NCBI GenBank assembly: GCA_018056705.1
Contig: JAGPFE010000011.1
Coordinates: 1 to 64,000, forward strand
Length of the DNA: 64,000 bases
From: Candidatus Hydrogenedentota bacterium
GTDB taxonomy: Bacteria; Hydrogenedentota; Hydrogenedentia; Hydrogenedentales; CAITNO01
Direction: 5' to 3'
The translations under genes and the position numbers were made by a program. The stretch's first letter is position 1, and each line of letters begins with the position of its first letter. This document shows, one piece after another, positions 1,646 to 61,955 of this stretch. The notes beneath the pieces are model-generated. The model searched no databases. It was not told where the DNA came from and saw only the letters and a program-made list of their open reading frames with translations.

Positions 1646-2135
1646 GGTCCAGTGCTCCCGCGCGTTGCATCGCGTCACCCGCCGGCATGGGAGCGGTCAG
1701 CGCGAAGGACTGTTCCCGACCGCTATCCAGCCAGGTGACCACGACGGTCAACTCCATCACGTCGGGCATGTTCTCCAACGGCCGCGCGAAGGCCCGCCAC
1801 CGGAAGGTTCCCCGGCTGGTCCACTGATCGGGAAGCGTGGTGAAGGGATAATCGACCGCGAGGTTTTCCCCCGCGGGAATCACGACCAGCCGGTCTCCCT
1901 GTTCATCCTGCTGCCAGCGGAAAGACGCGGGGGCCCGCGTCACTTCGGCCAGTTTCGCCATGGCAAGATCCGTGGCCGTCGCGCGGAATTCCGCCTCGCG
2001 GTAGAGATCACCCACCCGGCCAGCGAGCATCACCAGAATACCCACCGCCACTGATACCACGGTCAGGGCCGTCAGCAATTCCAGCAACGTGAAACCGGAC
2101 CGGTTTACCTCCCGGCTGATCACCAGACTCCGCAT
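1635..2135 (-). CDS. Pseudopilin with prepilin-type cleavage site
   Basis: This protein of 166 residues starts with a short leader and a type IV prepilin motif (SGFTLLELLTALTVVSVAVG). It is the first gene of the leftward operon that ends with gspF. The ATG at 2135 is preferred because an upstream in-frame extension to 2213 runs into AT-rich DNA of a different character and would place about 40 residues before the cleavage site. The C-terminal domain is not recognised beyond its pseudopilin-like size. The gene sits at the edge of the AT-rich restriction-modification islet, so its upstream promoter region may have been replaced by the insertion. Confidence 0.75.
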   Translation of the reverse strand: MRSLVISREVNRSGFTLLELLTALTVVSVAVGILVMLAGRVGDLYREAEFRATATDLAMAKLAEVTRAPASFRWQQDEQGDRLVVIPAGENLAVDYPFTTLPDQWTSRGTFRWRAFARPLENMPDVMELTVVVTWLDSGREQSFALTAPMPAGDAMQRAGALDHEG

Positions 2136-2209
2136 AGACCTGCTGAATCCTCTTCCCCCTTGTGTCTCATTATATAAGGCAATAATGACGCAATCAATAA
2201 AAAATACCG

Positions 2210-2890
2210 TCAATGTGAGTCAATAACCAACTTAAAATAATCGAAAATATGAACCTTTTCTAGATCCAACATGTACTTCGGAGCCCGAGGTCTTCCGTTG
2301 GAATTGATACCCTGCTTAAAGATATCTAATTTCACTAAATCTGCTTCTCTAACAACTACAAATAAAATTTCTAGTAGTTTTGCCGATGTCTTTCTGTACC
2401 GGGATATTGATGTCCGTTCAATGCGGTTTTTCTCGTATTTAGATAGCCCACCTTTCAATTGCGTATGCCATTGTTGAAAAGTGCGGTTTTCGTCATTATA
2501 GATAACGTCACATAATCCTAAAATTACCCCATACGCACCATCAGTCCGAATCGCCTGCTCAATGGCGCGCATGTCATTTAGTGGAGACTGATGCGAATCG
2601 GACTTTATAGCCTTAGCCTTGACATCCCAATTAATCACCCCTTTTAAATCAAAAGTAATGTTCCCGAAACGATCTCCGGGCCAAACAAAATGGGGTACAC
2701 CCGAAAGATGTTTTCGGATAAGATATTCGAAATAAAATCCGAACCACTCCATTTGTCGCCATTGGTCCTTCGCTTCTTTCATCTCCAGAATAGCGGCTTT
2801 ACCATCCCACACGGACTTTATAGACCTTAATGCCTCTATCAACAGTCTAATATCATAATCAGTACTGTCATGTAATCCAGTGGTTACCAT
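2210..2890 (-). CDS. Probable type II restriction endonuclease partner of the C5 methyltransferase
   Basis: The product is about 226 residues and lies immediately downstream of the methyltransferase gene, whose TAG stop ends at 2900. The ATG at 2890 has an AGGTG about 7 bases upstream. A GTG at 2899 directly abutting the previous stop is the alternative. I do not recognise the family by sequence. A segment with an acidic residue followed by a D-x-K core (FGNITFDLKG, then NWDVKAKAIKSD at roughly residues 80-100) resembles a PD-(D/E)xK nuclease active site, and the size fits a type II enzyme. The function is therefore inferred from context and this motif. It could instead be an unrelated accessory protein. 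Confidence 0.5.
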   Translation of the reverse strand: MVTTGLHDSTDYDIRLLIEALRSIKSVWDGKAAILEMKEAKDQWRQMEWFGFYFEYLIRKHLSGVPHFVWPGDRFGNITFDLKGVINWDVKAKAIKSDSHQSPLNDMRAIEQAIRTDGAYGVILGLCDVIYNDENRTFQQWHTQLKGGLSKYEKNRIERTSISRYRKTSAKLLEILFVVVREADLVKLDIFKQGINSNGRPRAPKYMLDLEKVHIFDYFKLVIDSH

Positions 2891-2899
2891 CTCAAACAC

Positions 2900-4273
2900 C
2901 TAAAATTCGAACAGAGTTAATTGACGTTGCCTCCCAACTAGATCCAAAATTCCGGAATCGAACCCAAGCAACACCGACGCAATAAGTCTCACCGCTCCCA
3001 CATTAACGGCATTACCTAATTGTCTGTATGCCGTCTCATCATCAATTCCAGACCGTTCAAAGATATTTCCCGGAATTCCCTGCAATCTGGCCGCCTCTTT
3101 GGGCGTAAGGCGACGGAATTCAGACGCTTTAGGCCGTAATAGAGGACCAATGACGGATGTCTGGGTGATCGCTACTAGAGCAGGTAGATAAGTAGGGGGC
3201 TTTACCCGAATACCACTAGGGCGGAATTGAATGACAAGATTTTTAAGTGTTCTACCACTACGAATCGGATGCGCCTTTCTCGCTTGCCATTCGAACTTCT
3301 GACGTGATAAAGGAAACTCCCGCACTGTCAGTGATGCGCTTCCAAACCGCATCATCAACCAATCTTCAATAACATCGGCATATTTATGGTAAAAAAAACT
3401 GTTTTTTATGCGAAAATCCCGCTCCCAATTTGGCATGGAGTTATTCAATTCTGGTTTTTTAGCAAACGCAAAGACCCAGATCGGAAACCCAGGAAGCACA
3501 TCTTCGGGAATGTTTCGCACAAACCATTCCCAAGCTTCTAGATAAGTTTTTTCAGGTTCGTTTACCAAGTAGCGCTCTAAACAAGGGATTTCCTCATCTC
3601 CATCTAAATAATCCGAAATAGACCAGTTGTCAGGAGACCACCACTGATACTTTCTCAATCGTTGAGCCATCTCGTAACACCGGAAAATACAACGGTAATC
3701 AAGGTCATGTCGCACACCTAAAATAAAAATGCGTTCACGAACTTGTGGCGTTCCACCATATTCCGGAGGAATAGTATGAGGAGAAACAATTAAAGGTTCA
3801 TCCAAAACATAATACCCAAGATATCTCAACGACTTAATTATTGTCTCCCATGTCTCTCGATGTCTAGGACCAGCCAGATTACGCACATTTTCCAAGAATA
3901 AATAAGGGGGACGTTTGACACGAATGATCTCAAGGATATCAAAAAACAAGGTCCCCCGAGTCCGATCAAGGACTCCCTTTTGTGTTCCCGATTTCGAAAA
4001 TGGTTGACACGGAAAACCCGCACAAAGTATATCGTGATTGGGAACCTGCTGATCTATGATATTGTCAACAACTGACCCCTGATCAGATCCTGTAATAGAA
4101 CGTATGTCTTCAAGAAAATCCGTTACATCAGGAAAAACCTCTCGATATACTTTCCGGCATGTCGGGTCTATTTCGCACGCCATTACACAGGTTCCACCAA
4201 GCGATTTTAGGGCAAAGTGAAAGCCCCCAATACCTGCAAACAGGTCAATAAATTTAAACGCATGCGCACTCAT
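2900..4273 (-). CDS. DNA (cytosine-5-)-methyltransferase
   Basis: The 457-residue product shows the C5-methyltransferase motifs in order: motif I DLFAGIGGF (10-18) for S-adenosylmethionine binding, motif IV GFPCQPFS with the catalytic Cys at 89, motif VI LENV (about 127-130), motif VIII QVRER (177-181), a target recognition region, motif IX RRLTPKEAARLQGIP and motif X GNAVNV near the end. It transfers a methyl group to C5 of cytosine in a specific site that cannot be read from the sequence. It is the first gene of a two-gene operon with a probable endonuclease. It has no N-terminal helix-turn-helix extension of the kind that lets some C5 methyltransferases repress themselves. Codon use is AT-rich relative to neighbours. 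Confidence 0.95.
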   Translation of the reverse strand: MSAHAFKFIDLFAGIGGFHFALKSLGGTCVMACEIDPTCRKVYREVFPDVTDFLEDIRSITGSDQGSVVDNIIDQQVPNHDILCAGFPCQPFSKSGTQKGVLDRTRGTLFFDILEIIRVKRPPYLFLENVRNLAGPRHRETWETIIKSLRYLGYYVLDEPLIVSPHTIPPEYGGTPQVRERIFILGVRHDLDYRCIFRCYEMAQRLRKYQWWSPDNWSISDYLDGDEEIPCLERYLVNEPEKTYLEAWEWFVRNIPEDVLPGFPIWVFAFAKKPELNNSMPNWERDFRIKNSFFYHKYADVIEDWLMMRFGSASLTVREFPLSRQKFEWQARKAHPIRSGRTLKNLVIQFRPSGIRVKPPTYLPALVAITQTSVIGPLLRPKASEFRRLTPKEAARLQGIPGNIFERSGIDDETAYRQLGNAVNVGAVRLIASVLLGFDSGILDLVGRQRQLTLFEF

Positions 4274-14330: not shown

Positions 14331-16697
14331 ATGCAACGAGTCCGCCGATCTCTCGGGTATGCCTGCCTCTTTCCGCTGGTAACCCTGGCCGTCATCCCCG
14401 CTTTTTCCGACACGCATTCCGCGGAGACCCCTGAAGAAAATACCGTCCGGGTGCTGCCCGGACCGGTTACCGCCCAGGACGCCGGGCTGGAAAAAATCGT
14501 CCACTTGCTCTCGGATACCCTGACCGGACGGGGGCCCGGCGCGTGGCCAGCGCGCATGAACGCCCCGGATGCCTCCATCACGTTACAACTGCGGCCCCCG
14601 GAATCCGGCCAATCCGATGAAACCTTTCATATCACAACGGAACCCGGGCCCGACAAGGCTGTCCGCCTCGTGCTTACGGGTGGGCGCCCCAGGGCACTGC
14701 TCTACGCGGCAGGCTGGATACTCCGAAACGCGGACCGTGACGATACGGCCCTGCTGTTTCCACCCGGTATCCGGGGAACCTTCGCGCCCGCGTGGCCCAT
14801 CCGGGGGCATCAACTGGGCTATCGCGCCACGGCCAACAGTTATGACGCCTGGGATGACATCCGCTATGAACGGTACATCCTCGACCTGGCCCTGTTCGGC
14901 GCCAACGCCATCGAAAACATCCCTTTTCAGGACGACAAGCCGGCGCCGCTGATGCCCTTACCCCGCCAGGAAATGAATCGAAAGATCAGTGAAATTTGCC
15001 AGGCCTACGACCTGGAATACTGGGTGTGGACTCCCGCCACTTTTTCCCTGGATGACGCGGCACAACGGGCCGAAGAACTGGATCGGCATGAGGCCTTGTA
15101 CGCTGCCTGCCCGACCCTGTCCGGGGTTTTCTTTCCAGGGGGTGACCCTGGAGACAATCCGCCAGAACGGGTGATTCCCTTTCTCGAGGACCTTGCCACG
15201 CGCCTGGAAAAGTATCATCCCGACGCGCGGGTATGGCTGTCGCTGCAGGGATACCGGGCGGAATGGGTGGACGCGGTGTTCACGTGGATCGAGCGGGATC
15301 ATCCCGCGTGGCTGGGTGGCCTGGTGGGCGGACCATCCAGTCCTCCCCTGGCGGAACTCCGCGCCCGGTTGCCAAAAGAATACCGCCTGCGGGACTATCC
15401 TGATATCACCCACACGGTCCGTTGCCAGTATCCCGTGCCGTGGTGGGATCCGGCCTTCGCCCTGACGCTCGGACGGGAACCGATCAATCCCCGCCCCCTT
15501 TTCTACGCGGATGTGCACCGGCAAACCGCGCGGTTCACGGACGGTTTCATCGCGTACTCCGACGGCATTCACGACGACGTCAATAAAGCGGTATACAGCG
15601 CGCTGGCCTGGGATCCATCCCTCACGCCGCGTGAAATCCTGCGGCAATACGCGCGCCTCTTCTTCGGCCCGGACACGGCCGACGCAGTAGCCGACGGCAT
15701 CCTCGCGCTGGAACGCGACTGGGATGGCCCCCTGGCCGAAAATGGCAGTGTAGCCGCGACCGCGGCATACTGGCGACAGTTGAACCGGCAGTTTCCATCC
15801 CTTGGCGAAAACTGGCGGTGGAATTGCCTGTTGCTCCGGGCTGAATACGACGAGTGGACGCGCAAGCGGCTGCTCTACGAGCAATCTCTCGAAGCACGGG
15901 CCATGGACGTACTGTATCCCGGGTCTGACCAGGATCCGCGAACCGCCATGGATAACGCCGAATCCATCCTGCAACAAGCCGAGACGCGTCTTCCAGACCC
16001 GGCACAGCGGGACCGGATCATCGCGCTTTTCGAAACACTGTTTAAACAGATCGGCCTGCAATCAAGCGTGGAACGCTATGGCGCGAGTGGTCACGAACGT
16101 GGATGCTCCCTCGATTTTCTGGAGTACCCACTCAATAACCGATGGTGGCTTATCGACCGGTTCCAGGAAATCCGGCAATTGACCGACCCATCGGAACAAT
16201 GGCGCCAAATCCGTGAACTCCGGGCCTGGGAATCCCCCGTACCTGGCGCGCTGTACGACGACATCGGCCACGTGGGACGATGCCCACGGGTTCTGATGGG
16301 CAGCCGCCGCGCGGGAGACCGGTATCTTCCTGATGAGCCTATCCCGACCCAATGGTGGTGGGACAACGGGTTCAGTCGACGGCGCCTTTCCTGGCAGTGT
16401 ACCATGGACTGGCCTCGGGCCCTCGTGTATGAGGGACTCAACCCGGCGCAAAAATGGATTTTCCGGTGTACTGGCTACGGAGACGTCCTGCCGAGGGCCG
16501 ATGGCGTCCCGTTGAATCCCACCCGGCATAACCGGGAGATCGGCGGGATCAAGGAATTCCCCGTGCCCCCGGAACTGACCCGGGACGGCTCGTTGGTCAT
16601 CACCTTTGACCCCGTACCGAACGAGGAAAACCTGAACTGGCGGCAACAATCCCGCCTGGCGGAAACCTGGCTGTTTCCTGACGCCGAAAACCCCTGA
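14331..16697 (+). CDS. Secreted glycoside-hydrolase-like protein (GH67/GH20-type N-terminus)
   Basis: The 788-residue protein has a signal peptide and then a domain of about 110 residues resembling the alpha/beta domain that precedes GH67 and GH20 barrels. It continues into a barrel-like part starting PIRGHQLGYRATANSYDAW and YILDLALFGANAIENIPF. This phrase recurs in alpha-glucuronidase-like proteins of Bacteroidetes and PVC bacteria. C-terminal residues 560-788 are less familiar. It is likely an exo-acting glycosidase on uronate- or hexosamine-containing chains, but the catalytic residues cannot be placed with certainty. It starts 33 bases after the sialidase-like gene with AGGAGAAAGG upstream, so they form an operon. 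Confidence 0.65.
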   Translation: MQRVRRSLGYACLFPLVTLAVIPAFSDTHSAETPEENTVRVLPGPVTAQDAGLEKIVHLLSDTLTGRGPGAWPARMNAPDASITLQLRPPESGQSDETFHITTEPGPDKAVRLVLTGGRPRALLYAAGWILRNADRDDTALLFPPGIRGTFAPAWPIRGHQLGYRATANSYDAWDDIRYERYILDLALFGANAIENIPFQDDKPAPLMPLPRQEMNRKISEICQAYDLEYWVWTPATFSLDDAAQRAEELDRHEALYAACPTLSGVFFPGGDPGDNPPERVIPFLEDLATRLEKYHPDARVWLSLQGYRAEWVDAVFTWIERDHPAWLGGLVGGPSSPPLAELRARLPKEYRLRDYPDITHTVRCQYPVPWWDPAFALTLGREPINPRPLFYADVHRQTARFTDGFIAYSDGIHDDVNKAVYSALAWDPSLTPREILRQYARLFFGPDTADAVADGILALERDWDGPLAENGSVAATAAYWRQLNRQFPSLGENWRWNCLLLRAEYDEWTRKRLLYEQSLEARAMDVLYPGSDQDPRTAMDNAESILQQAETRLPDPAQRDRIIALFETLFKQIGLQSSVERYGASGHERGCSLDFLEYPLNNRWWLIDRFQEIRQLTDPSEQWRQIRELRAWESPVPGALYDDIGHVGRCPRVLMGSRRAGDRYLPDEPIPTQWWWDNGFSRRRLSWQCTMDWPRALVYEGLNPAQKWIFRCTGYGDVLPRADGVPLNPTRHNREIGGIKEFPVPPELTRDGSLVITFDPVPNEENLNWRQQSRLAETWLFPDAENP

Positions 16698-20417: not shown

Positions 20418-23400
20418 TCAGGACCCGGGAATCTCCAGTCTTTGGGGCTCAGCGTCATTGAGGGTTATTCGAACCCGGGCGGTCATTCCCTCCGGGGGCA
20501 GGGCCAGGAATACCGTTCGTTCTTCGTTGCTTTCCAGCACCAGGGGAGCGCGAACGGGAAAATCGGGAATCCACTCGGGAGTGACGAATCCGAAACACTG
20601 CAGTTCCACGCTGCCGCAAGCCGGAAAAGACCATGGATTCCGCGTGGTCACCCGCAACCGGCCGGGCTCCCGATCTACCCTTACCACCGGACGCAAGGTT
20701 TTCTCTGCCAGCGTGTCCACCCATCTCGCCCCGTTCCAGAACATCCACGCCATCACACCACCTGTTCCATCTGGAGATTCTTCTGAAGTCACCCGAATCT
20801 TCCATTGCCCCCGCTCACCGGGATTGAGCGCGACATATACCTGCGAGGGCTCTGCGCGCCAGCCAGGCGAAGTCGACAGGTGCGCCACCGACTCAATCTT
20901 TCCATCCACGAGGTAGTTCGCCACGGTCAAGGTAACCTCACATTCGGGCGCGGTCAATGTGCCTTGAAGCGATACGGTCAGTGGCAACCCCCGGGATGGC
21001 GGCGTCACCATGCCTTGCCGCCAGTAGCGGCAGAACATCCGCGGCACGTCGTTCTGATCAACCAGGACCCTGGTGGGGGGCGTGGCGAGGATCATTTTCG
21101 GCAGTACCCAGAAACTGGCTGCCGCGAAAGGGGGCACCGCGCAGGAAATCCTGTTACCATCCGTCACGGGCAGATCGGTCACGCTGCGTTCGAGACCATC
21201 CGCCAGGGCCGCCGCGGCCAGCGGGGTATACCACGACGCGCTGCCGGACCACGCCGTACCGTACGGCTCACTCAGCCGGAGCAGCATACCGTCCCGGGGA
21301 CCAGGCAACGCGGCCCGGTGAGCCGCCACGGCATACCCGGCGGTCTTGACGGTCTCCAGGATCACGCCCGGACCACCCAGGGTAAGCAACGACTGCCGGT
21401 GCGGCATCGGACCCGGCTGAATCCCGCAAATGGCCGAAAACAACGGAGTCCTAAGACGGGCCGCCGCTTCAGGCGCGCCCAGGGAACGCCAGTCTCCAGG
21501 GCCTGCGCGCAACCAGAACTCCCGCGTTGGCGGCGCGGAGGGTAACGGATTGTCTCCATCCGGTGGGGCCCACAGTGCGATGACGACCCGCCCGTCGGGA
21601 TCCATTCCTGCTGGCAGGGTTCCGGGCCAAGTGAATACCACGGCCTGTTCCGCCCGCGGTACGGGATCTACCCCCATGCCGGCCACCCGATCGAAGGTCA
21701 GCGCGCCGGACTCACGATATGCCTCCAGCGCGTGGTTCACCCGGTCCTCAATATCCTGGGCAGTCCCGCCCAGCACCAGCGCGGTGACCGGACCGTTTCC
21801 AGGATGTGCCATGGGGTCAGGCAACAACACGGCTTCTCCCCGTTGCAGCACGTCCGCGATCTCACGACGATGGTCCGAAGACAGCGTTTCGATCAATGCC
21901 CTGGCGTAGCGGTTCGATTCCGGGCTGCCCAGCGCGATACGCAATGGCGCGTCCGTGTGATACTTCAGATGGGGACAAGTGGGGGCGTTGGCGTCAGGCC
22001 ATGGATCCCGTTCCAGCGCGTCGGAAGTCACCACCGCGGGAATTCCCCGCCGGTAAAGGGCGATCGCGAGAGCCCGGGCAGTCCGGCGCAGCCGAATGTC
22101 CTCGCCCGGAACAATCAGCGCCGGTTGCAGGGACCATGTTTTACCGTCCTTGGAACGTAAGGTATCGCTCCCGGACGCCGCGAACCATCCGGCGGCCGGC
22201 AGGAAATACGTGCCGGTCGGGCGTTCCTCGTCCCGGGTACGGTACAGGTCAGGTCGGGCGTGCCGTCGACCAACCACGGGCCGCCCGGATCCTCCCGCAA
22301 TCGGAACACACCCCGGGTCTGGCGATGGAGATGACAGGAATACCGCTTTCCCACGGGCATCCACCCCTTCGAAAGCGATCTCGCACCTCGGCCAGTCCTC
22401 TCCTTCGGACACCTGCCACCGCCGGACCAATTTCCCCTCCAGGAAAGGCTGCTCCACGGTCAGTTCCTGCATCCAGGACAACCGCCGCGCGGTAAACGTC
22501 GGCGCGCCAGGCCGTACCGCCGGGCCCGAGGTCCAAAGTTCCGCGCCATCCGCGGTCCGCGAAGCATCATTATTCAACGCGAATACCGCGCCGATATCCG
22601 GCGCGTCGAATGACCATCTGCTGGACTTGTCCGTGTAGCGCCGCAAGTCCCCGGTATCCGGATCAAACTCCAGCAGCACCCGGTCGTTTTCCAGAACCGG
22701 CCGGTTATCCCGCACCGGAGTATCCGGCGTGCCCCCGGACCGGATAAAGCACGTGGCATAGCCCGTCGCGGGCACCTGTCGGGCCAGAAATCGGAACCGG
22801 CCCACTTGTCTCGGCGTGCCGTCCTGCGCCGTCGTTTCCCGGATGTCCAGCGTAAAGGGCATGGGCTCGTCCAGCGCGTCCACCAGCGCTGGACGTTCCA
22901 TTCCCGTGATGTCCGCCTCGAGTTCCCCGGACACCGTCCGGTCCACGGGCGCGGCATTAAAGAGCAGCACGGCCCGGGTCCCTTCCTGGCGTCCGAATTT
23001 CGGGGCCACGCCCATGGTGTTAACCTGGCCCCCTAGTGCTTGCAGGGCCTCCTCAACGCGGGAACGGATCATTTCCCGCGCGGCGCACAGGTCCCCGAAA
23101 CTGTCCAGCAGGTCCTCCTGGCTTCCCATCCCCGCCAGCCGCCACCACGCGCCACGCGCCGAGAGCACCCGCCACCCCCAGTCCAGGTCCTCCAGCGGAG
23201 CCCGTGCTCCAGCGAGTCCACACAGGGTGACTGCCGTTTCTCCCGCGGTCAGCAGCGATTCCGTTTCCGTCCACGCGCGATGCATGGCGGGAAATCGAAG
23301 CAACAGGCCCGGCCGGTTCCCGGAAACCATGCCCGTCGCGAGCCGGTCGGGAGGAAACGCCCCGTCCGACGTGAGCAGCGTGGGCATCGCCGCGAAGTAC

Positions 23401-25205
23401 GCGTCCGGCGCGAGCCGGTCTATTCTCGCGGGGGGATACAGGGATGGTAACCTTGGCAACAGGGGTTCCAGCCACCCGGGAACGCCACCGGTCACGTCCA
23501 TCAGGACCAGGGAAGGCCCCCAGCCCTGGCGGTTGTCCGCGCGCCGGCTCACCCCCAGCATGTCGGGCAGCGCGTCCCCGTGTTCCGGCGGCGGCATGGC
23601 CGCATCACGCCGCAGTACGAACCATCCGCCAGGATCCAGGGGAATCGCGCTCACACCGGGCATGAAGCGGTAGCCTTCAGAGACTATCGCGCCCCGGATG
23701 CCCGACTCGGCCAGCCGCTCGAACCCGGCGGCATCCGGCAAAGGACCCTCCGTGAACGCCGCGGACTCCGGCGTGTGCCCCAGCAGGGCCTGCGCGACAC
23801 CCAGGGTCGTCGCGGTGTCCCGGCGCGCCGTTTCGGGCCTGGCCACCCGGGGATCGGGCGTGCTGTCAGCCGCCGCAACGGACATAAACGCCGGACGCCC
23901 CAGGGGCGCCACCAGGTCCAGCAGGTCAGGACGGGCCGCGAAGAACGGCAGCAGGTCGTCTGGTCCTGCCGCGTAAAATCCACCCCCACGCCAGCGGCCC
24001 TGCAGCAGGGCCAGGTCCGTCAGCAGCGATACCTCCCGCTCAAGAGCCGCCATGTCCCGGGCAGGGCTCAACGGCCCAACGCCCATCCACGTCACCGGAT
24101 TGCGCGGCCATGGCGCATCCGCCATCGTCAGCGTAATAATTGCCGGATCGCCCCCTCCCGCCCGCGCGGTCAGTGTTACCGGCCCCCCTCCCGCTCCGGG
24201 CCCATCGGCCGGCACGGGTACCGGCAACAGCACGTCTTCCGTCTCGTACGGCCGCAACGCGGGCAATTTCACCTGGGCTGCCAGCGTGCCGTTCTGCATA
24301 TCAATGGTGCCCGGCGGACTGGCGGTGGGGCCATGGTTCCACGCGGCCAGTGTAAACAACCGGCGGACATCACCAGCCGTGCCGCTCAGTCGTCCCGTGT
24401 CCCGGGGAAGCGTGTCGAAGTGTACTGGGCCCGAAGCAACCGCCCGGCGCACCCGCAGGGCGATTTCCCACCCGTTCGCGCCCGACAGCATACTCCGGTT
24501 GGCCCATGCCCCGTTCAGCAGCCCCGCGATGGAAACGTCCAGCGCGCGGGCCAGCACGTCCAGATCGGCCAGGGGAGCCTCGAACATCACGAGATGCTGA
24601 CCCGGAGGCAACACCGCCAGGAATCGGTCTACCCCTGCCTCCTCCAGGGAAGCCGCCCGGATGTCCCGGTAGGACTGGCCATTAATCCACCACCGCGCGC
24701 CGAAGTGCGTGTGAGCCTCGAAGAACACCGGGGTTGCCGCGTCCACCGTCACGTAGAAGGCGGCGTAGGCCACGCCTTCATCCCGCCCACGGAACAGGCT
24801 GGAAAAATCGAGGCGGGGCGTGTCCAGCCTCGCGGCCTGCCATACAGCTTGGGGCCCCTCGACCGCGAGCAGGGGTATCGGCCGGGTCATCGCCACGCCA
24901 CCGAGGGGTTCCATGAAATCCCGGCTGCCCAAGGCTGCCCCTCCACCGGCGGCCGCGCGGATAATTCCCTCCGGACGATCGGAAGGAAACGGCCCACACA
25001 CGAACCAGTCCCGGGGAAACCCCCGCTCCAGCATCGCATTCAGGGGCTCGGCGTACCGGGCCGTCTGGCTCGTGGGGGCAACCGGTGGTGCCTGTCCCCA
25101 CGCGGCGGGAATCGCGATGGCCAATAACCACGACACCAGCGGCACTAGACGCGTTGCGGCCACATGGCGCGATTTGCTGGACCGGTTTACACCCATGGCG
25201 TTCAT
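20418..25205 (-). CDS. Giant secreted GH38 (alpha-mannosidase)-like protein, possibly inactive
   Basis: The 1595-residue protein has a signal peptide (about 20-37). A region with RDWFVCGPFPSD and a jelly-roll-like part (about 60-240) follow. A poorly conserved middle third comes next, and then a segment from about residue 765 that fits the GH38 C-terminal domain (AVLLFNAAPVDRTVSGELE, PVLENDRVLLEFDPDTGDL). A helical segment before it, ending in SRVEEALQAL, fits the GH38 middle domain. I cannot find the DxFGH-type nucleophile motif or the His/Asp metal ligands of GH38 in the middle third. It is therefore either very divergent or a non-catalytic relative. The start lacks a clear ribosome binding site. 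The upstream gene is 49 bases away on the same strand. Confidence 0.6.
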   Translation of the reverse strand: MNAMGVNRSSKSRHVAATRLVPLVSWLLAIAIPAAWGQAPPVAPTSQTARYAEPLNAMLERGFPRDWFVCGPFPSDRPEGIIRAAAGGGAALGSRDFMEPLGGVAMTRPIPLLAVEGPQAVWQAARLDTPRLDFSSLFRGRDEGVAYAAFYVTVDAATPVFFEAHTHFGARWWINGQSYRDIRAASLEEAGVDRFLAVLPPGQHLVMFEAPLADLDVLARALDVSIAGLLNGAWANRSMLSGANGWEIALRVRRAVASGPVHFDTLPRDTGRLSGTAGDVRRLFTLAAWNHGPTASPPGTIDMQNGTLAAQVKLPALRPYETEDVLLPVPVPADGPGAGGGPVTLTARAGGGDPAIITLTMADAPWPRNPVTWMGVGPLSPARDMAALEREVSLLTDLALLQGRWRGGGFYAAGPDDLLPFFAARPDLLDLVAPLGRPAFMSVAAADSTPDPRVARPETARRDTATTLGVAQALLGHTPESAAFTEGPLPDAAGFERLAESGIRGAIVSEGYRFMPGVSAIPLDPGGWFVLRRDAAMPPPEHGDALPDMLGVSRRADNRQGWGPSLVLMDVTGGVPGWLEPLLPRLPSLYPPARIDRLAPDAYFAAMPTLLTSDGAFPPDRLATGMVSGNRPGLLLRFPAMHRAWTETESLLTAGETAVTLCGLAGARAPLEDLDWGWRVLSARGAWWRLAGMGSQEDLLDSFGDLCAAREMIRSRVEEALQALGGQVNTMGVAPKFGRQEGTRAVLLFNAAPVDRTVSGELEADITGMERPALVDALDEPMPFTLDIRETTAQDGTPRQVGRFRFLARQVPATGYATCFIRSGGTPDTPVRDNRPVLENDRVLLEFDPDTGDLRRYTDKSSRWSFDAPDIGAVFALNNDASRTADGAELWTSGPAVRPGAPTFTARRLSWMQELTVEQPFLEGKLVRRWQVSEGEDWPRCEIAFEGVDARGKAVFLSSPSPDPGCVPIAGGSGRPVVGRRHARPDLYRTRDEERPTGTYFLPAAGWFAASGSDTLRSKDGKTWSLQPALIVPGEDIRLRRTARALAIALYRRGIPAVVTSDALERDPWPDANAPTCPHLKYHTDAPLRIALGSPESNRYARALIETLSSDHRREIADVLQRGEAVLLPDPMAHPGNGPVTALVLGGTAQDIEDRVNHALEAYRESGALTFDRVAGMGVDPVPRAEQAVVFTWPGTLPAGMDPDGRVVIALWAPPDGDNPLPSAPPTREFWLRAGPGDWRSLGAPEAAARLRTPLFSAICGIQPGPMPHRQSLLTLGGPGVILETVKTAGYAVAAHRAALPGPRDGMLLRLSEPYGTAWSGSASWYTPLAAAALADGLERSVTDLPVTDGNRISCAVPPFAAASFWVLPKMILATPPTRVLVDQNDVPRMFCRYWRQGMVTPPSRGLPLTVSLQGTLTAPECEVTLTVANYLVDGKIESVAHLSTSPGWRAEPSQVYVALNPGERGQWKIRVTSEESPDGTGGVMAWMFWNGARWVDTLAEKTLRPVVRVDREPGRLRVTTRNPWSFPACGSVELQCFGFVTPEWIPDFPVRAPLVLESNEERTVFLALPPEGMTARVRITLNDAEPQRLEIPGS

Positions 25206-25254: not shown

Positions 25255-26799
25255 TCAGGGAAACGCCACACGACGCGCCGGAAACGGTTCCCGCCACGGG
25301 GTAATCCGCCACTCCGCGGGCGCGCTGGCTACCCGCGGCCGCTGAGGCATCAGGATCCGTTTCAGCATTTGCGGGCCAGATGGCCGCTCCGGCAGAGGTT
25401 CCAGCCGGTAACCCGTCCACGGATGGGCCCCAACCACGTCAACGATCCGGAGGGTTCCTCCACCGGGCCCATATTCCGGCACATCCACCACGCGCGTGAG
25501 TCCCGGGGTCATCTCTACCCACACCAGGGCGGACGCGTCGCGTCCCGGTCCAAAGGGCGGCGGACACCGCAACGCCTCGGCCAGGCGCACGGGCGCGAAG
25601 CCCACCCGGTATACATCTGGAAACACCGCCAGGGTCTCGTCCCCTGGGATAGTCGCCGCCTGGGCCATGCCTTGTTTCAGCAGGCGATGGGCTCTCTGCC
25701 AGTCCATGGATATCCAGCCGTGCCAGGCCATCAGGGCCAGGCACGTCGCCGTGCTCGCGGCAACGGTCCGCTTTCTAAACCTCGGATGCTCCAGTTGCGC
25801 CCGGAACCCCGCTGCCCCCACCAGCGCCAGCAAGGCCACCGGAACTATGTACGCCCCTCCCCCTTCGAAGGTCTGAACATCCAGCCTCCCACCCACCGCC
25901 AGGCAAACCGGCAGAGACAGCGCGACCAGTCGCCCGGCTGCCCTCCCCGCGAAATGCCGCGCCAGCAGGATCAGCCCTGCCCACGTGATCAGCGACCACG
26001 CGGCGTGCCACGCCGGGTAGGCCTCGAAAAACCGCGCCGCGTCGGCAGAAAGGCCAAAAGGCCATGCCACCAGCAACCACGCCTGGCCACCACGTAACAG
26101 GCCGAACAGGCCCATCGGGTCCCAGGAACAACTGTACAGGGCCCCGCCCAGGATGGCCAGCGTCACGGGCAACACGCGGCGCATGCCACCCCACCCGGTC
26201 GACTGTCGAATCCACGCCCATCCCGCGATCAGTACCAGCGCTGTCCACCACTGTCCCGTAATCCACGCGATCCCCGGCGGCAGCAGCCATCCCGCCAGGG
26301 TCCGGCCCACACCACCCCGAGCGGACGATTCCACCACCCATACCGCCACCAGCAACAGCAACCCGTCGGCCAGGGCGGTTATCCCGGTCACGGTAAATAT
26401 CGCGCCGGATTTCACCGGGTGGGCCAGAAACAGCACCGCCGCCACGGAACCCAGCCACCACGGCCCACCAGTGATCGAACGGCTCAACCGGAAAACCAGG
26501 ACGACCACCCCATACAGCAACACCAGGCTCGCCAGGCGAGGCCAGACAACCGACGGCCCGTGGAACATCCCCGAACAAACCGTAAAAAACCACCCTCCCT
26601 TTCCGGCGGAGGCTTCCGGTAACCTGACGAAGTCTTCCCCCATGGGTCCCAGCCGCAGTGTCCACCCGAACAGGATAAGCAGGTACAGGGCGTCCGCTAC
26701 CAGGAAGGGCAACCAGCGGTCCGTTCGCGCGGAGGCAGGCGAATCGTCTTTCACCCCCCCGGGTTCAGTGGGCGGTGAACCGGGCGAGTTCCTGTTCAT
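25255..26799 (-). CDS. Polytopic membrane protein, GT-C glycosyltransferase-like
   Basis: The 514-residue protein has about ten hydrophobic helices followed by a soluble tail of about 150 residues. The loop LAHPVKSGAIFTVTGITALADG resembles the corresponding loop of TMTC/PMT-type GT-C enzymes (HP, then a charged or Gly-rich turn, then a helix). That suggests a polyprenyl-phosphate-sugar-dependent glycosyltransferase or a relative. The first extracytoplasmic loop has GEDFVRLPEA, where PMT-type enzymes carry their catalytic acidic residues. The assignment is tentative. It overlaps the end of the DapA-family gene by 35 bases and precedes the 1595-residue protein gene, so the three are one operon. 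Confidence 0.5.
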   Translation of the reverse strand: MNRNSPGSPPTEPGGVKDDSPASARTDRWLPFLVADALYLLILFGWTLRLGPMGEDFVRLPEASAGKGGWFFTVCSGMFHGPSVVWPRLASLVLLYGVVVLVFRLSRSITGGPWWLGSVAAVLFLAHPVKSGAIFTVTGITALADGLLLLVAVWVVESSARGGVGRTLAGWLLPPGIAWITGQWWTALVLIAGWAWIRQSTGWGGMRRVLPVTLAILGGALYSCSWDPMGLFGLLRGGQAWLLVAWPFGLSADAARFFEAYPAWHAAWSLITWAGLILLARHFAGRAAGRLVALSLPVCLAVGGRLDVQTFEGGGAYIVPVALLALVGAAGFRAQLEHPRFRKRTVAASTATCLALMAWHGWISMDWQRAHRLLKQGMAQAATIPGDETLAVFPDVYRVGFAPVRLAEALRCPPPFGPGRDASALVWVEMTPGLTRVVDVPEYGPGGGTLRIVDVVGAHPWTGYRLEPLPERPSGPQMLKRILMPQRPRVASAPAEWRITPWREPFPARRVAFP

Positions 26800-27757
26800 A
26801 CTGGGCCTTGAAGGCCTCGTAGGCCTCGTCCGTCAGGGGCGCGCGGTCCGCCAGGTAGGGATGGGTGGCGCTCGACCGATCGTACCCCGGCACATCGTAG
26901 CCCTTTTCCCGGGCGTATCGTTTCAGGAAATCCACGGGATTGGCGCAACCCCGAACCAGCCGGTTGACCGCCGCCTGGATTTCCAGAACCCGCGACCAGT
27001 CGCTCCCCTCCGCCGCGTCCAGCATGGCCGTGAACAAGCCGGGATTCAGAATGGTTCCCTGGCCGATGCAGGCCCGCGCGCCCAGCCACAGGCCCACGTA
27101 AAACACGGTCTCGCAACCAACGATGAAGCCAAAGTCCTTCCCCGAGGTCGCGCGGATCAGTTCGAACACGTACGCGCCGTTCTCCGTGGAGAATTTCCCG
27201 GCCACGAGGTTGTCGATCTCCGCCAGTCGGGCCAGGGTATCCGGGGCCAGGCAGAATTCCGGACGGGTCACCGGCGGCTGGTAGAGGAACACCGGCCCGG
27301 GCACGGCGGCGCATATCCGCTCGAAGTAAGACAGGTGCGCGTCGGCAATGGCCCGCGCCCCCGCGTCCGCTGGTACCAGGCACTCCGGCACGGTGTATAC
27401 CACGCCCGCCGCGCCTTGTTCCAGGGCATATGTACCCAGTTCTACTCCTTCACGGATATATTGCCCGGGATCGGGCAGCCGATCGAAATCCCGGTTCCAC
27501 GTACCGCTCGTCCCCACGAGTACCGGCGCGCGCCCTCTCAGGTGATCGCAGGCCAGCGCGGCCATCCGGCGGGTTTCCTCGACGGAGAACGTGTACATGA
27601 GCCCCATCCCCGACCGGACAAAATAGGCGCTGATGCCGCCTTGGTCCAGCAGGAAATCGAAAAACCGCCGCTGTCCGGTTTCGTTCAACGCGCCCTGCCG
27701 GTCGAAGATAGTAAACACCGGGGCGATCGCTCCGCGAACCCACGCTGGAACTTTCAT
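26765..27757 (-). CDS. Dihydrodipicolinate synthase (DapA)/N-acetylneuraminate lyase family aldolase
   Basis: The 330-residue protein is a class I pyruvate-type aldolase. PVLVGTSGT stands at the GxxGxxG-like region, Tyr lies in VFLYQPPV and the Schiff-base Lys in AGKFSTENG. It is somewhat longer than DapA (about 290) because of a C-terminal extension and lacks other lysine genes nearby. A role in degrading a 2-keto-3-deoxy sugar acid or sialic acid is therefore as likely as lysine synthesis. The ATG at 27757 is preceded by GGGGAG. It heads an operon with a GT-C-like membrane protein and a giant secreted GH38-like protein, which favours a carbohydrate role. Confidence 0.82.
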   Translation of the reverse strand: MKVPAWVRGAIAPVFTIFDRQGALNETGQRRFFDFLLDQGGISAYFVRSGMGLMYTFSVEETRRMAALACDHLRGRAPVLVGTSGTWNRDFDRLPDPGQYIREGVELGTYALEQGAAGVVYTVPECLVPADAGARAIADAHLSYFERICAAVPGPVFLYQPPVTRPEFCLAPDTLARLAEIDNLVAGKFSTENGAYVFELIRATSGKDFGFIVGCETVFYVGLWLGARACIGQGTILNPGLFTAMLDAAEGSDWSRVLEIQAAVNRLVRGCANPVDFLKRYAREKGYDVPGYDRSSATHPYLADRAPLTDEAYEAFKAQYEQELARFTAH

Positions 27758-59924: not shown

Positions 59925-61955
59925 TCACTGGCCGTTTCCCGGAGCACCGCTGACCACCGTGAACGACACGGTCCGCGCGTTACCAAACACGTCACGGATC
60001 GCCAGTGACACGTTCACGGGTCGGACCGGATCGGCGGACAGGCTTATTGTCGATCCCTTTTCCTTCTTGCCGTTGACCTTCCACGTCAAGTCCCTCAGGG
60101 ATCCCCCTGGCGGCATGGATCGGAAAAACCCCTCCGGAATATCTTCACCCAGCCCGCAGGGCAAACGACCCGCTGGAGCCCGTACCAGCGCGGTCCCATC
60201 CAGCACCCGGCTTTCCCCAGGAGGAAGCGTGATCGTGTCCGGCAGGTCCACCAGCCCCAAGGCGCATCGCCCGGTCAACGCGTCCGCCACGACGCGCATG
60301 AGCGTATCCCGGGCTCCGGCGCACCCCCACGCCAGAAGCACCGCGTCCGCGTCTGTCAGCCGGGTCGCGTAATCTGGTCGTCCCAGAAAGACCACAATGA
60401 CGCGCGGAATCTGCTGCCTCAGGGCACGGGTCAGTTCAATCAGCGTTTCTACCCGTTCCCGCTCGGTCACCACGATAACAACCGTATTCAGTCCGCGCGT
60501 GTTCCGGGTCAACCGGTCGATTTCAAACGTCTGGATGTCTCCCGCGTGCCCGGCGGACATGATCGGTTGCTGCACCACGGTTTTCAGCGACTTCCTGAGA
60601 CCTTTCTGCAACACGTCGAGATCCACCGTCCCCGTGAGCCCCACTGGCGCGGCATCCCGACCCAGCGGCAGCGCGTCTCCCCGCAGATGAAGCAGGGTCA
60701 GGCTGGTCCGTTGCAGCGCGGTCATCGCATCTTCCGGCTTTTCCCCTCCGGACGCGTTCGCGTTGATCTCCTGCCGGGCCGCCGAGAGAATGCCAGCCAC
60801 CCGCGTCGCCTTTTCCCGTACCAGTTCGGCGGGCAGGTCACCACGGGCCGCCGCCGCGGCCAGGTAATCTATCGCCCGTTCCACCCCGCGCAGACCACCT
60901 TGCCACAGGATCATGTCTGCCCCGGCCAGCAGGGCCTGGCGGGCCGCTTCGGCCGCGTCCATTTTCAGGGTTTCGCCGTCCACCGGTCCGGCCAGCACGA
61001 TCCCCCTGAATCCCAGTTGCCTCCTTAACAGGTCCTGCAGCACGGTGGCATTAAGACACGCCGGCCCGCCCGACCACATCGGCACTTCCACGTCTCCCAC
61101 CTGCGCCACGCGCGCCGCCCGGAGGGCTTCCGCGTAGGGAAGACCGTCCCTACCGGGCCACGCGTCCGGCGGCGTGGTGAGCACCGGAGGCTGATTCCAG
61201 TCCCGAGTCCAGGATCCGCCAGGAAATCCCCACGGGGTGGCCAGTACGCCCCGTTCCCCAAGTCTCCGGATCACCGACACGCCCAGACGGGCCACCTCGT
61301 GAGGTCGGGAACCGATACAGCGGGTCGACGCGGCTGAACCGGGAAGATCCGGCCACAGCGAAAGGTCGGGACCAGGCATCCAGTCCATGCCCAACCCCCG
61401 CATGGTCCGCGCCACCACGTCCGCCCAGGCCACCGCGTACCGGTCTTCCCCCGTGGCGGCCACGGCCATCAGCGGTGGCAATGGCGGCAATGAACCGCGC
61501 GCCGTGCCAGCCATAAACGCCGTCAGGTCCCAAGGATCCGCGCCGATCAGCATCGGCCGGCCAGCCCGCCGTTCCGCCTGGCGCAACATGGCCACCAGCA
61601 GCGGCAGGTTTTCCGGTTTGCCCGCCGCGCGAATCCACGCCCCTCCGGGCGGCAAACGATCCAGAAACGATCCATCCTCCGGCGTAAGTTTCAGTGCGCA
61701 ATCCATGGACACGACCATGAGCGCAGCCAGCAGGGGCTTAAGCGAGGCCGGATCCGTCTCCTTCGACAGGGGAACGGAATCCCGCGGTGTCGTCCCGCCG
61801 GTCGGATTAACCAGCGAAGGCGGAGCAACCATCCTTTCCCGGGATTGCGCGATCGCCTGCTCAAAACGTACCGGCAACCCTGCCACCACCCCCATAAGAA
61901 GCACCGCGGCAATCCACCGGCCCGGCAAACCGATCTCCTGCTGTCCCCGTCTCAT
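59925..61955 (-). CDS. GH3-like secreted protein lacking catalytic residues
   Basis: The 676-residue protein has a signal peptide or anchor and a GH3 (NagZ-like) barrel: LIGADPWDLTAFM, DWMPGPDLSLWP and QLGFRGIVLAGPVDGETLKM with the helix ARQALLAGADMIL, followed by an alpha/beta sandwich domain. The usual KHFPGHG motif is replaced by WGFPGGS (about residue 247). The nucleophile Asp in the (S/T)D motif is replaced in VLAGPVDG (about 318). It is therefore probably an inactive or repurposed GH3. It overlaps the MEMO gene by 4 bases on the same strand. Confidence 0.75.
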   Translation of the reverse strand: MRRGQQEIGLPGRWIAAVLLMGVVAGLPVRFEQAIAQSRERMVAPPSLVNPTGGTTPRDSVPLSKETDPASLKPLLAALMVVSMDCALKLTPEDGSFLDRLPPGGAWIRAAGKPENLPLLVAMLRQAERRAGRPMLIGADPWDLTAFMAGTARGSLPPLPPLMAVAATGEDRYAVAWADVVARTMRGLGMDWMPGPDLSLWPDLPGSAASTRCIGSRPHEVARLGVSVIRRLGERGVLATPWGFPGGSWTRDWNQPPVLTTPPDAWPGRDGLPYAEALRAARVAQVGDVEVPMWSGGPACLNATVLQDLLRRQLGFRGIVLAGPVDGETLKMDAAEAARQALLAGADMILWQGGLRGVERAIDYLAAAAARGDLPAELVREKATRVAGILSAARQEINANASGGEKPEDAMTALQRTSLTLLHLRGDALPLGRDAAPVGLTGTVDLDVLQKGLRKSLKTVVQQPIMSAGHAGDIQTFEIDRLTRNTRGLNTVVIVVTERERVETLIELTRALRQQIPRVIVVFLGRPDYATRLTDADAVLLAWGCAGARDTLMRVVADALTGRCALGLVDLPDTITLPPGESRVLDGTALVRAPAGRLPCGLGEDIPEGFFRSMPPGGSLRDLTWKVNGKKEKGSTISLSADPVRPVNVSLAIRDVFGNARTVSFTVVSGAPGNGQ

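Follow-up and report, generated by a model that had tools for sequence, protein, structure and literature searches.

The window, meaning the whole stretch of 64,000 nucleotides analysed here, carries on its minus strand an open reading frame at 20418-25205, exactly where an earlier note on this DNA had placed a 1595-residue protein. The product, referred to as P0001, has full-length counterparts, one of them 63% identical with an intact frame and others 21-29% identical, and hence the gene is real. The 63%-identical copy belongs to a sister species, and the 1595 codons run without stop or frameshift in both species. The homolog from the same genus and most of the other named homologs are labelled Candidatus Hydrogenedentota, which places the organism of the window in this phylum. 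The two copies give a dN/dS of about 0.21 and a pN/pS of 0.38 (Nei-Gojobori), which are rough values with synonymous sites near saturation. The gene is kept under purifying selection, and its frame is unbroken. On inspection, the N terminus has a hydrophobic stretch at about residues 20-36 followed by AAWGQA, and P0001 is apparently exported by a signal-peptide-like start. The gene for a membrane protein, P0002, lies 49 bp upstream. The features of the locus are as follows.

20418..25205, minus strand: gene of P0001, pseudo-GH38 protein of 1595 residues (ORF position, homologs)
25095..25205, minus strand: signal-peptide-like N terminus, residues 1-37 (hydropathy and AAWGQA, read directly)
24471..25073, minus strand: N1 domain, residues 45-245, best-conserved part of the clade of P0001
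24111..24470, minus strand: N2 linker/beta domain, residues 246-365 (alignment; borders approximate)
23406..24110, minus strand: GH38 catalytic alpha/beta domain, residues 366-600, active site lost (hhalign, AF2 model, Foldseek)
22986..23405, minus strand: GH38 middle (three-helix) domain, residues 601-740 (Pfam match in relatives; model)
21306..22985, minus strand: GH38 C-terminal beta domains, residues 741-1300 (Pfam, hhalign, AF2 model, Foldseek)
20421..21305, minus strand: C-terminal beta region, residues 1301-1595 (alignment; NPCBM_assoc/NEW3-like in 7/17 relatives)
23748..23750, minus strand: E486, column of the catalytic nucleophile/zinc Asp (joint alignment)
23490..23492, minus strand: T572, column of the acid/base Asp (joint alignment)
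23145..23147, minus strand: W687, column of the helical-domain zinc His, QHHD (joint alignment)
25255..26799, minus strand: P0002, 514-residue multi-pass membrane protein with a predicted GT-C-like fold and first-loop Asp D56 (model, fold search)
26765..27757, minus strand: DHDPS-like aldolase overlapping P0002 by 35 bp, linked in the genus of the window only (locus comparison)

As a single sequence, P0001 has no match in Pfam, NCBIfam or the PDB at E-values up to 10, the Pfam GH38 models included. A family profile built from 17 full-length relatives, which are 21-63% identical to P0001, matched GH38 structures in the PDB, namely 3lvt with an E-value of 1.7e-21, fission yeast Ams1, and SpGH38. 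Among these relatives, Pfam matches at E-values up to 1 were found for GH38N in 8, the middle domain in 14, and 38C in 8. Aligned by hhalign, the family pairs with the clade of long intact GH38s at an E-value of 8e-90 over 902 columns, and with a set consisting mainly of GH38s from the window's own genome at 1.5e-41 over 760 columns. The AF2 model of residues 345-1300 has a pLDDT of 86.2 and a pTM of 0.89; its first 40 Foldseek matches are all GH38 alpha-mannosidases, with a best E-value of 1.7e-28 and TM-scores of 0.61-0.70 for the best. Because of the profile, hhalign and AF2/Foldseek matches, the catalytic domain is placed at residues ~366-600. The PDE...GE...RN motif region of GH38 is kept in most relatives in the alignment. 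Judged from these profiles and the model, residues ~366-1300 comprise a complete GH38 alpha-mannosidase fold with the catalytic domain included, and the relation to GH38 is certain once the relatives are considered. Profile alignment, structure prediction and ortholog search, all proposed in the earlier note, placed the fold and uncovered a clade of relatives. That note had called the C-terminal GH38 domain clear and the catalytic third unrecognisable. The first statement overstates what the single sequence shows and becomes true with relatives added, and the second is true of the single sequence only.

P0001 shares the whole fold, with its alpha/beta, three-helix and beta domains, with GH38 alpha-mannosidases such as SpGH38 (2wyh/2wyi), the Enterococcus faecalis enzyme (3lvt/5kbp), and Drosophila Golgi mannosidase II. 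It differs from them by lacking the H-x-D motif, the zinc His and the acid/base, by a nucleophile column that is variable in its clade, and by the addition of N1, N2 and the C-terminal region (1595 residues versus ~900). In SpGH38, zinc is bound by H13, D15, D125, which is also the nucleophile, and H351, while D232 serves as acid/base (PMC2815779). We inspected these positions in joint alignments of 23 clade members (some partial), six long relatives with an intact site, canonical GH38s from the window's own genome, and six relatives from outside the phylum. The His-x-Asp metal motif of strand 1 is complete in 0/23 clade members and present in all six intact relatives. None of the 23 has the zinc His of the helical HD motif; its column holds 19 Pro, two Trp, one Val and one Thr, and P0001 has Trp687 there. 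The acid/base Asp is likewise absent from all 23 members, with Thr572 in P0001, although this column is the least secure, being Asp in only 5/6 of the intact clade. Intact relatives inside the phylum read HFD, GDVFGH and QHHDSITG at the corresponding motifs, and those outside read, for instance, HCD, AWDVFGH and QHHDAITG. A DxFGH-type site, said earlier to be untraceable, can be located by its column, which in P0001 reads AFTEGPL with Glu486 in place of the nucleophile Asp. This residue, reached by column counting, is still acidic, a point missing from the earlier claim of a lost site. Intact nucleophile and metal ligands, which the earlier note had named as the finding to speak against that claim, were looked for, and Glu486 is what stands at the nucleophile, next to an absent metal motif, zinc His and acid/base. 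The view of P0001 as an apparently secreted GH38 relative devoid of a catalytic site is thereby borne out, and the alignments and model together provide good support for the clade having lost catalysis and representing a GH38-derived pseudoenzyme.

Two explanations would preserve activity. The apparent loss could be an alignment artefact, an intact active site lying elsewhere in the protein, and some room for this is left by the divergence of P0001, whose catalytic and middle domains are 15% identical to those of intact relatives, and by a gap in its first strand. However, less divergent members are free of gaps at the key columns, with AWDAPG against AWDVFGH and AWRQLCYWSAPDKLG against AWRQLLCGQHHDSITG (another member reads YWSAPDRLG), and hhalign yields the same pairing; we regard an artefact as very improbable. 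Alternatively, P0001 could still hydrolyse its substrate by an altered mechanism that needs no metal and relies on Glu486 or other acidic residues in the barrel. The nucleophile column holds Asp in nine, Glu in five, Asn in five, Gly in two, Ser in one and His in one of the 23 members. The acid retained in 14/23, P0001 among them, fits such a mechanism, as do some barrel residues that are invariant in the alignment of relatives (D451, R453, and R462), but the other nine members have N, G, S or H there, the acid/base is gone throughout, and conservation has moved away from the catalytic domain. We hold a surviving hydrolase to be improbable.

The shift of conservation is seen when the dead clade is compared with its long intact relatives, which keep all four metal/nucleophile residues. 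In the intact clade, conservation is highest in the catalytic and helical domains, with a mean identity of 76-77% versus 49-65% elsewhere. In the dead clade, the best-conserved part is N1 (residues 50-235), with a mean pairwise identity of 43% versus 28-34% elsewhere; of the 44 columns that are invariant, 20 fall within it. In P0001, degeneration has gone furthest in the catalytic domain, whose identity to the family is 18% versus 38.5% for N1. These figures suggest that the main constraint has shifted to N1, as would be expected if the protein gave up catalysis and its constrained function passed to N1. A search of the PDB with the N1 profile returned nothing significant and no solved relative. 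Domains resembling N1 also come before a GH38 that looks intact and before DUF4838 proteins.

The closest relatives of the dead clade are long intact GH38s of 1216-1605 residues from Hydrogenedentota (L059-L062, L064, and L098) and from other phyla (L173-L175 and L178), and those of ~1560 residues have the same overall layout as P0001. In the tree, the dead clade is monophyletic (100/100) with intact lineages branching around it. Because of this topology, and because the active site is retained in intact relatives of comparable length, both from the phylum and from beyond it, the loss of the site is derived. The earlier note had confined the loss to this genome; it is instead the common state of a clade spread over Hydrogenedentota. 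Outside the phylum, one other family contributes two further long relatives of GH38, L176 (5633-9580, minus strand) and L177 (5698-9537, minus strand), which according to alignment and tree have also lost the zinc site and which group beside the clade with modest support (85). Their loss may be either an older shared one or a second one, and as read from sequence they possibly form a second, independent line of GH38 pseudoenzymes.

The genus of the window sits on a long branch (~2.1-2.2). This raises the explanation that the gene is decaying in this genus, as the relic of a pseudoenzyme still functional elsewhere, in keeping with a catalytic domain that is the least conserved part and a dN/dS above that of the neighbouring genes. 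Decay is nonetheless at odds with 1595 codons unbroken in two species at 63% protein identity, a dN/dS of about 0.21, and the constraint remaining on N1 and the C-terminal parts. We think a relic quite improbable.

We then inspected P0002 and the other neighbours. P0002 has no Pfam match. Its family is found in 58/68 genomes of the phylum, normally in single copy, which makes it a candidate signature gene of Hydrogenedentota; the family motifs are PLGRDYA, MANPVKTEAV and DPVHLxGGG. The P0002 model has a pLDDT of 82 and a pTM of 0.86, and its first 11 Foldseek matches are all GT-C proteins (OST catalytic subunits, ALG12, ArnT, AglB, PglB, and Emb/Aft). Most of these matches have a high probability, but the best E-value is just 1.6e-3, which is weak. 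The model suggests that P0002 has a GT-C glycosyltransferase fold. P0002 resembles the GT-C enzymes (OST/PglB/AglB, ALG12, and ArnT) in its predicted fold, which crosses the membrane several times, and in the Asp of its first extracytoplasmic loop; unlike them, it shows no detectable sequence relation to known GT-C enzymes, and the Asp is lost in some linked lineages. Specifically, the position of D56 (motif PLGRDYA) is Asp in 44/52 rows, comprising 36/39 unlinked and 8/13 linked ones.

Linkage was tallied by hand from locus tables for the 25 genomes with a substantial pseudo-GH38. P0002 lies directly upstream (<150 bp) in 13 of them and within 2 kb on the same strand in three more, giving 16/25. 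In the remainder, it is nearby on the other strand in one, on another contig in six, and not found in two. The flanks of intact long GH38 loci that were examined contain no P0002-like gene. Neither protein strictly needs the other, because P0002 occurs in many genomes without a pseudo-GH38 and 8/25 carriers have it on a different contig or lack a detected copy. The idea that P0002 always precedes a pseudo-GH38 was rejected, the family being nearly universal in the phylum with most copies elsewhere. The DHDPS-like aldolase was also discarded as a conserved operon member, its linkage being confined to the genus of the window. A family of CPBP-type (Rce1-like) membrane proteins is located just downstream in eight loci, with a Pfam match in one of two members scanned. 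At L046 (7007-9886, plus strand), an alpha-L-rhamnosidase fused to a YkuD L,D-transpeptidase domain is encoded directly upstream of a pseudo-GH38 gene.

We propose, with a probability of roughly 55%, that P0001 is a pseudoenzyme of GH38 descent which serves envelope glycan assembly as a partner of the GT-C-type protein, binding glycans or providing a scaffold without catalysis. Its ancestor would have been a long GH38 alpha-mannosidase with N-terminal beta domains, a complete GH38 core and a C-terminal beta region. The zinc site and acid/base would have been lost before the carrier lineages of Hydrogenedentota diverged, and the dead protein would then have been retained under purifying selection. 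After export, it may work non-catalytically next to the GT-C protein, at the outer surface of the cytoplasmic membrane, and the dead cleft and/or N1 might bind a mannose-like glycan or glycoprotein made or modified by that protein. P0001 would thus be a functional partner of P0002, in the role of a lectin-like scaffold or an acceptor-presenting subunit.

A purely structural pseudoenzyme would be a large scaffold or adhesin, at the surface or in the periplasm, with N1 for contact and the GH38 core as a spacer, and its GT-C neighbour would reflect co-regulation or a glycosyltransferase of which P0001 is the substrate. Such a protein would account for N1 being best conserved while the GH38 core drifts, and for the degeneration of the catalytic domain in P0001 in particular. 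On the other hand, the core is full-length in all complete members, though a spacer could shrink, and the conserved gene pair points to glycans. We consider the purely structural role rather unlikely, and it is because the pair of pseudo-GH38 and P0002 genes is conserved that we favour the link to glycans. Like the earlier note, we infer a binding or structural role, of which a glycan-related one is the likelier form given the linked GT-C-like gene. Extending the partner reading, the GT-C protein and the secreted dead GH38 as its dedicated glycan- or acceptor-binding subunit, possibly with the CPBP-type protease, could make up a glycan-assembly module at the level of the phylum, which we put forward only tentatively. 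If so, in lineages where the first-loop Asp of P0002 is lost as well, two carbohydrate enzymes that have both been retired would together form a complex for sensing or anchoring.

Chitinase-like proteins of GH18 and Klotho of GH1 have kept a glycosidase fold, lost catalysis, and gained a role in binding or signalling. Pseudoenzymes derived from glycosidases are a known kind from several families, and a GH38 example was not found in the literature searched, which is no proof of absence. P0001 differs from the GH18 and GH1 cases in its family, its zinc-dependent ancestor, its bacterial origin and its linkage to a membrane protein, and its own binding role is a putative one. Its clade offers an old, phylum-wide pseudoenzyme that can be compared with intact relatives and whose linked gene hints at a role. 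As the GH38 fold is kept, automatic annotation may call less divergent members alpha-mannosidases and thereby credit these uncultured bacteria with more capacity for carbohydrate degradation than they have.

Other genes of this genome were also noted. Two GH38s of canonical length are encoded on contigs C53 and C100 (L066:5729-8575 and L068:4833-7829, both minus strand); they keep H-x-D and the zinc His, but in place of PDxFGH they read TPFSYGQ, which has no Asp at the nucleophile column. The GH3-like protein that the earlier note had paired with P0001 is real (59925-61955, minus strand; GH3 N-terminal domain with an E-value of 1.2e-24). Inspection by eye shows FRGIVLAGPVDG in place of the SD-type nucleophile motif of GH3 enzymes and ATPWGFPGGSW in place of their KHFPGHG, and from these motifs the protein looks like a second dead glycosidase. 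A 788-residue protein without Pfam or NCBIfam match (14331-16697, plus strand) is 75% identical in the sister species, where it stands in the same order beside the pseudo-GH38 locus. At positions 2001-4000, the G+C content drops to 0.435, compared with 0.56-0.68 elsewhere in the window.
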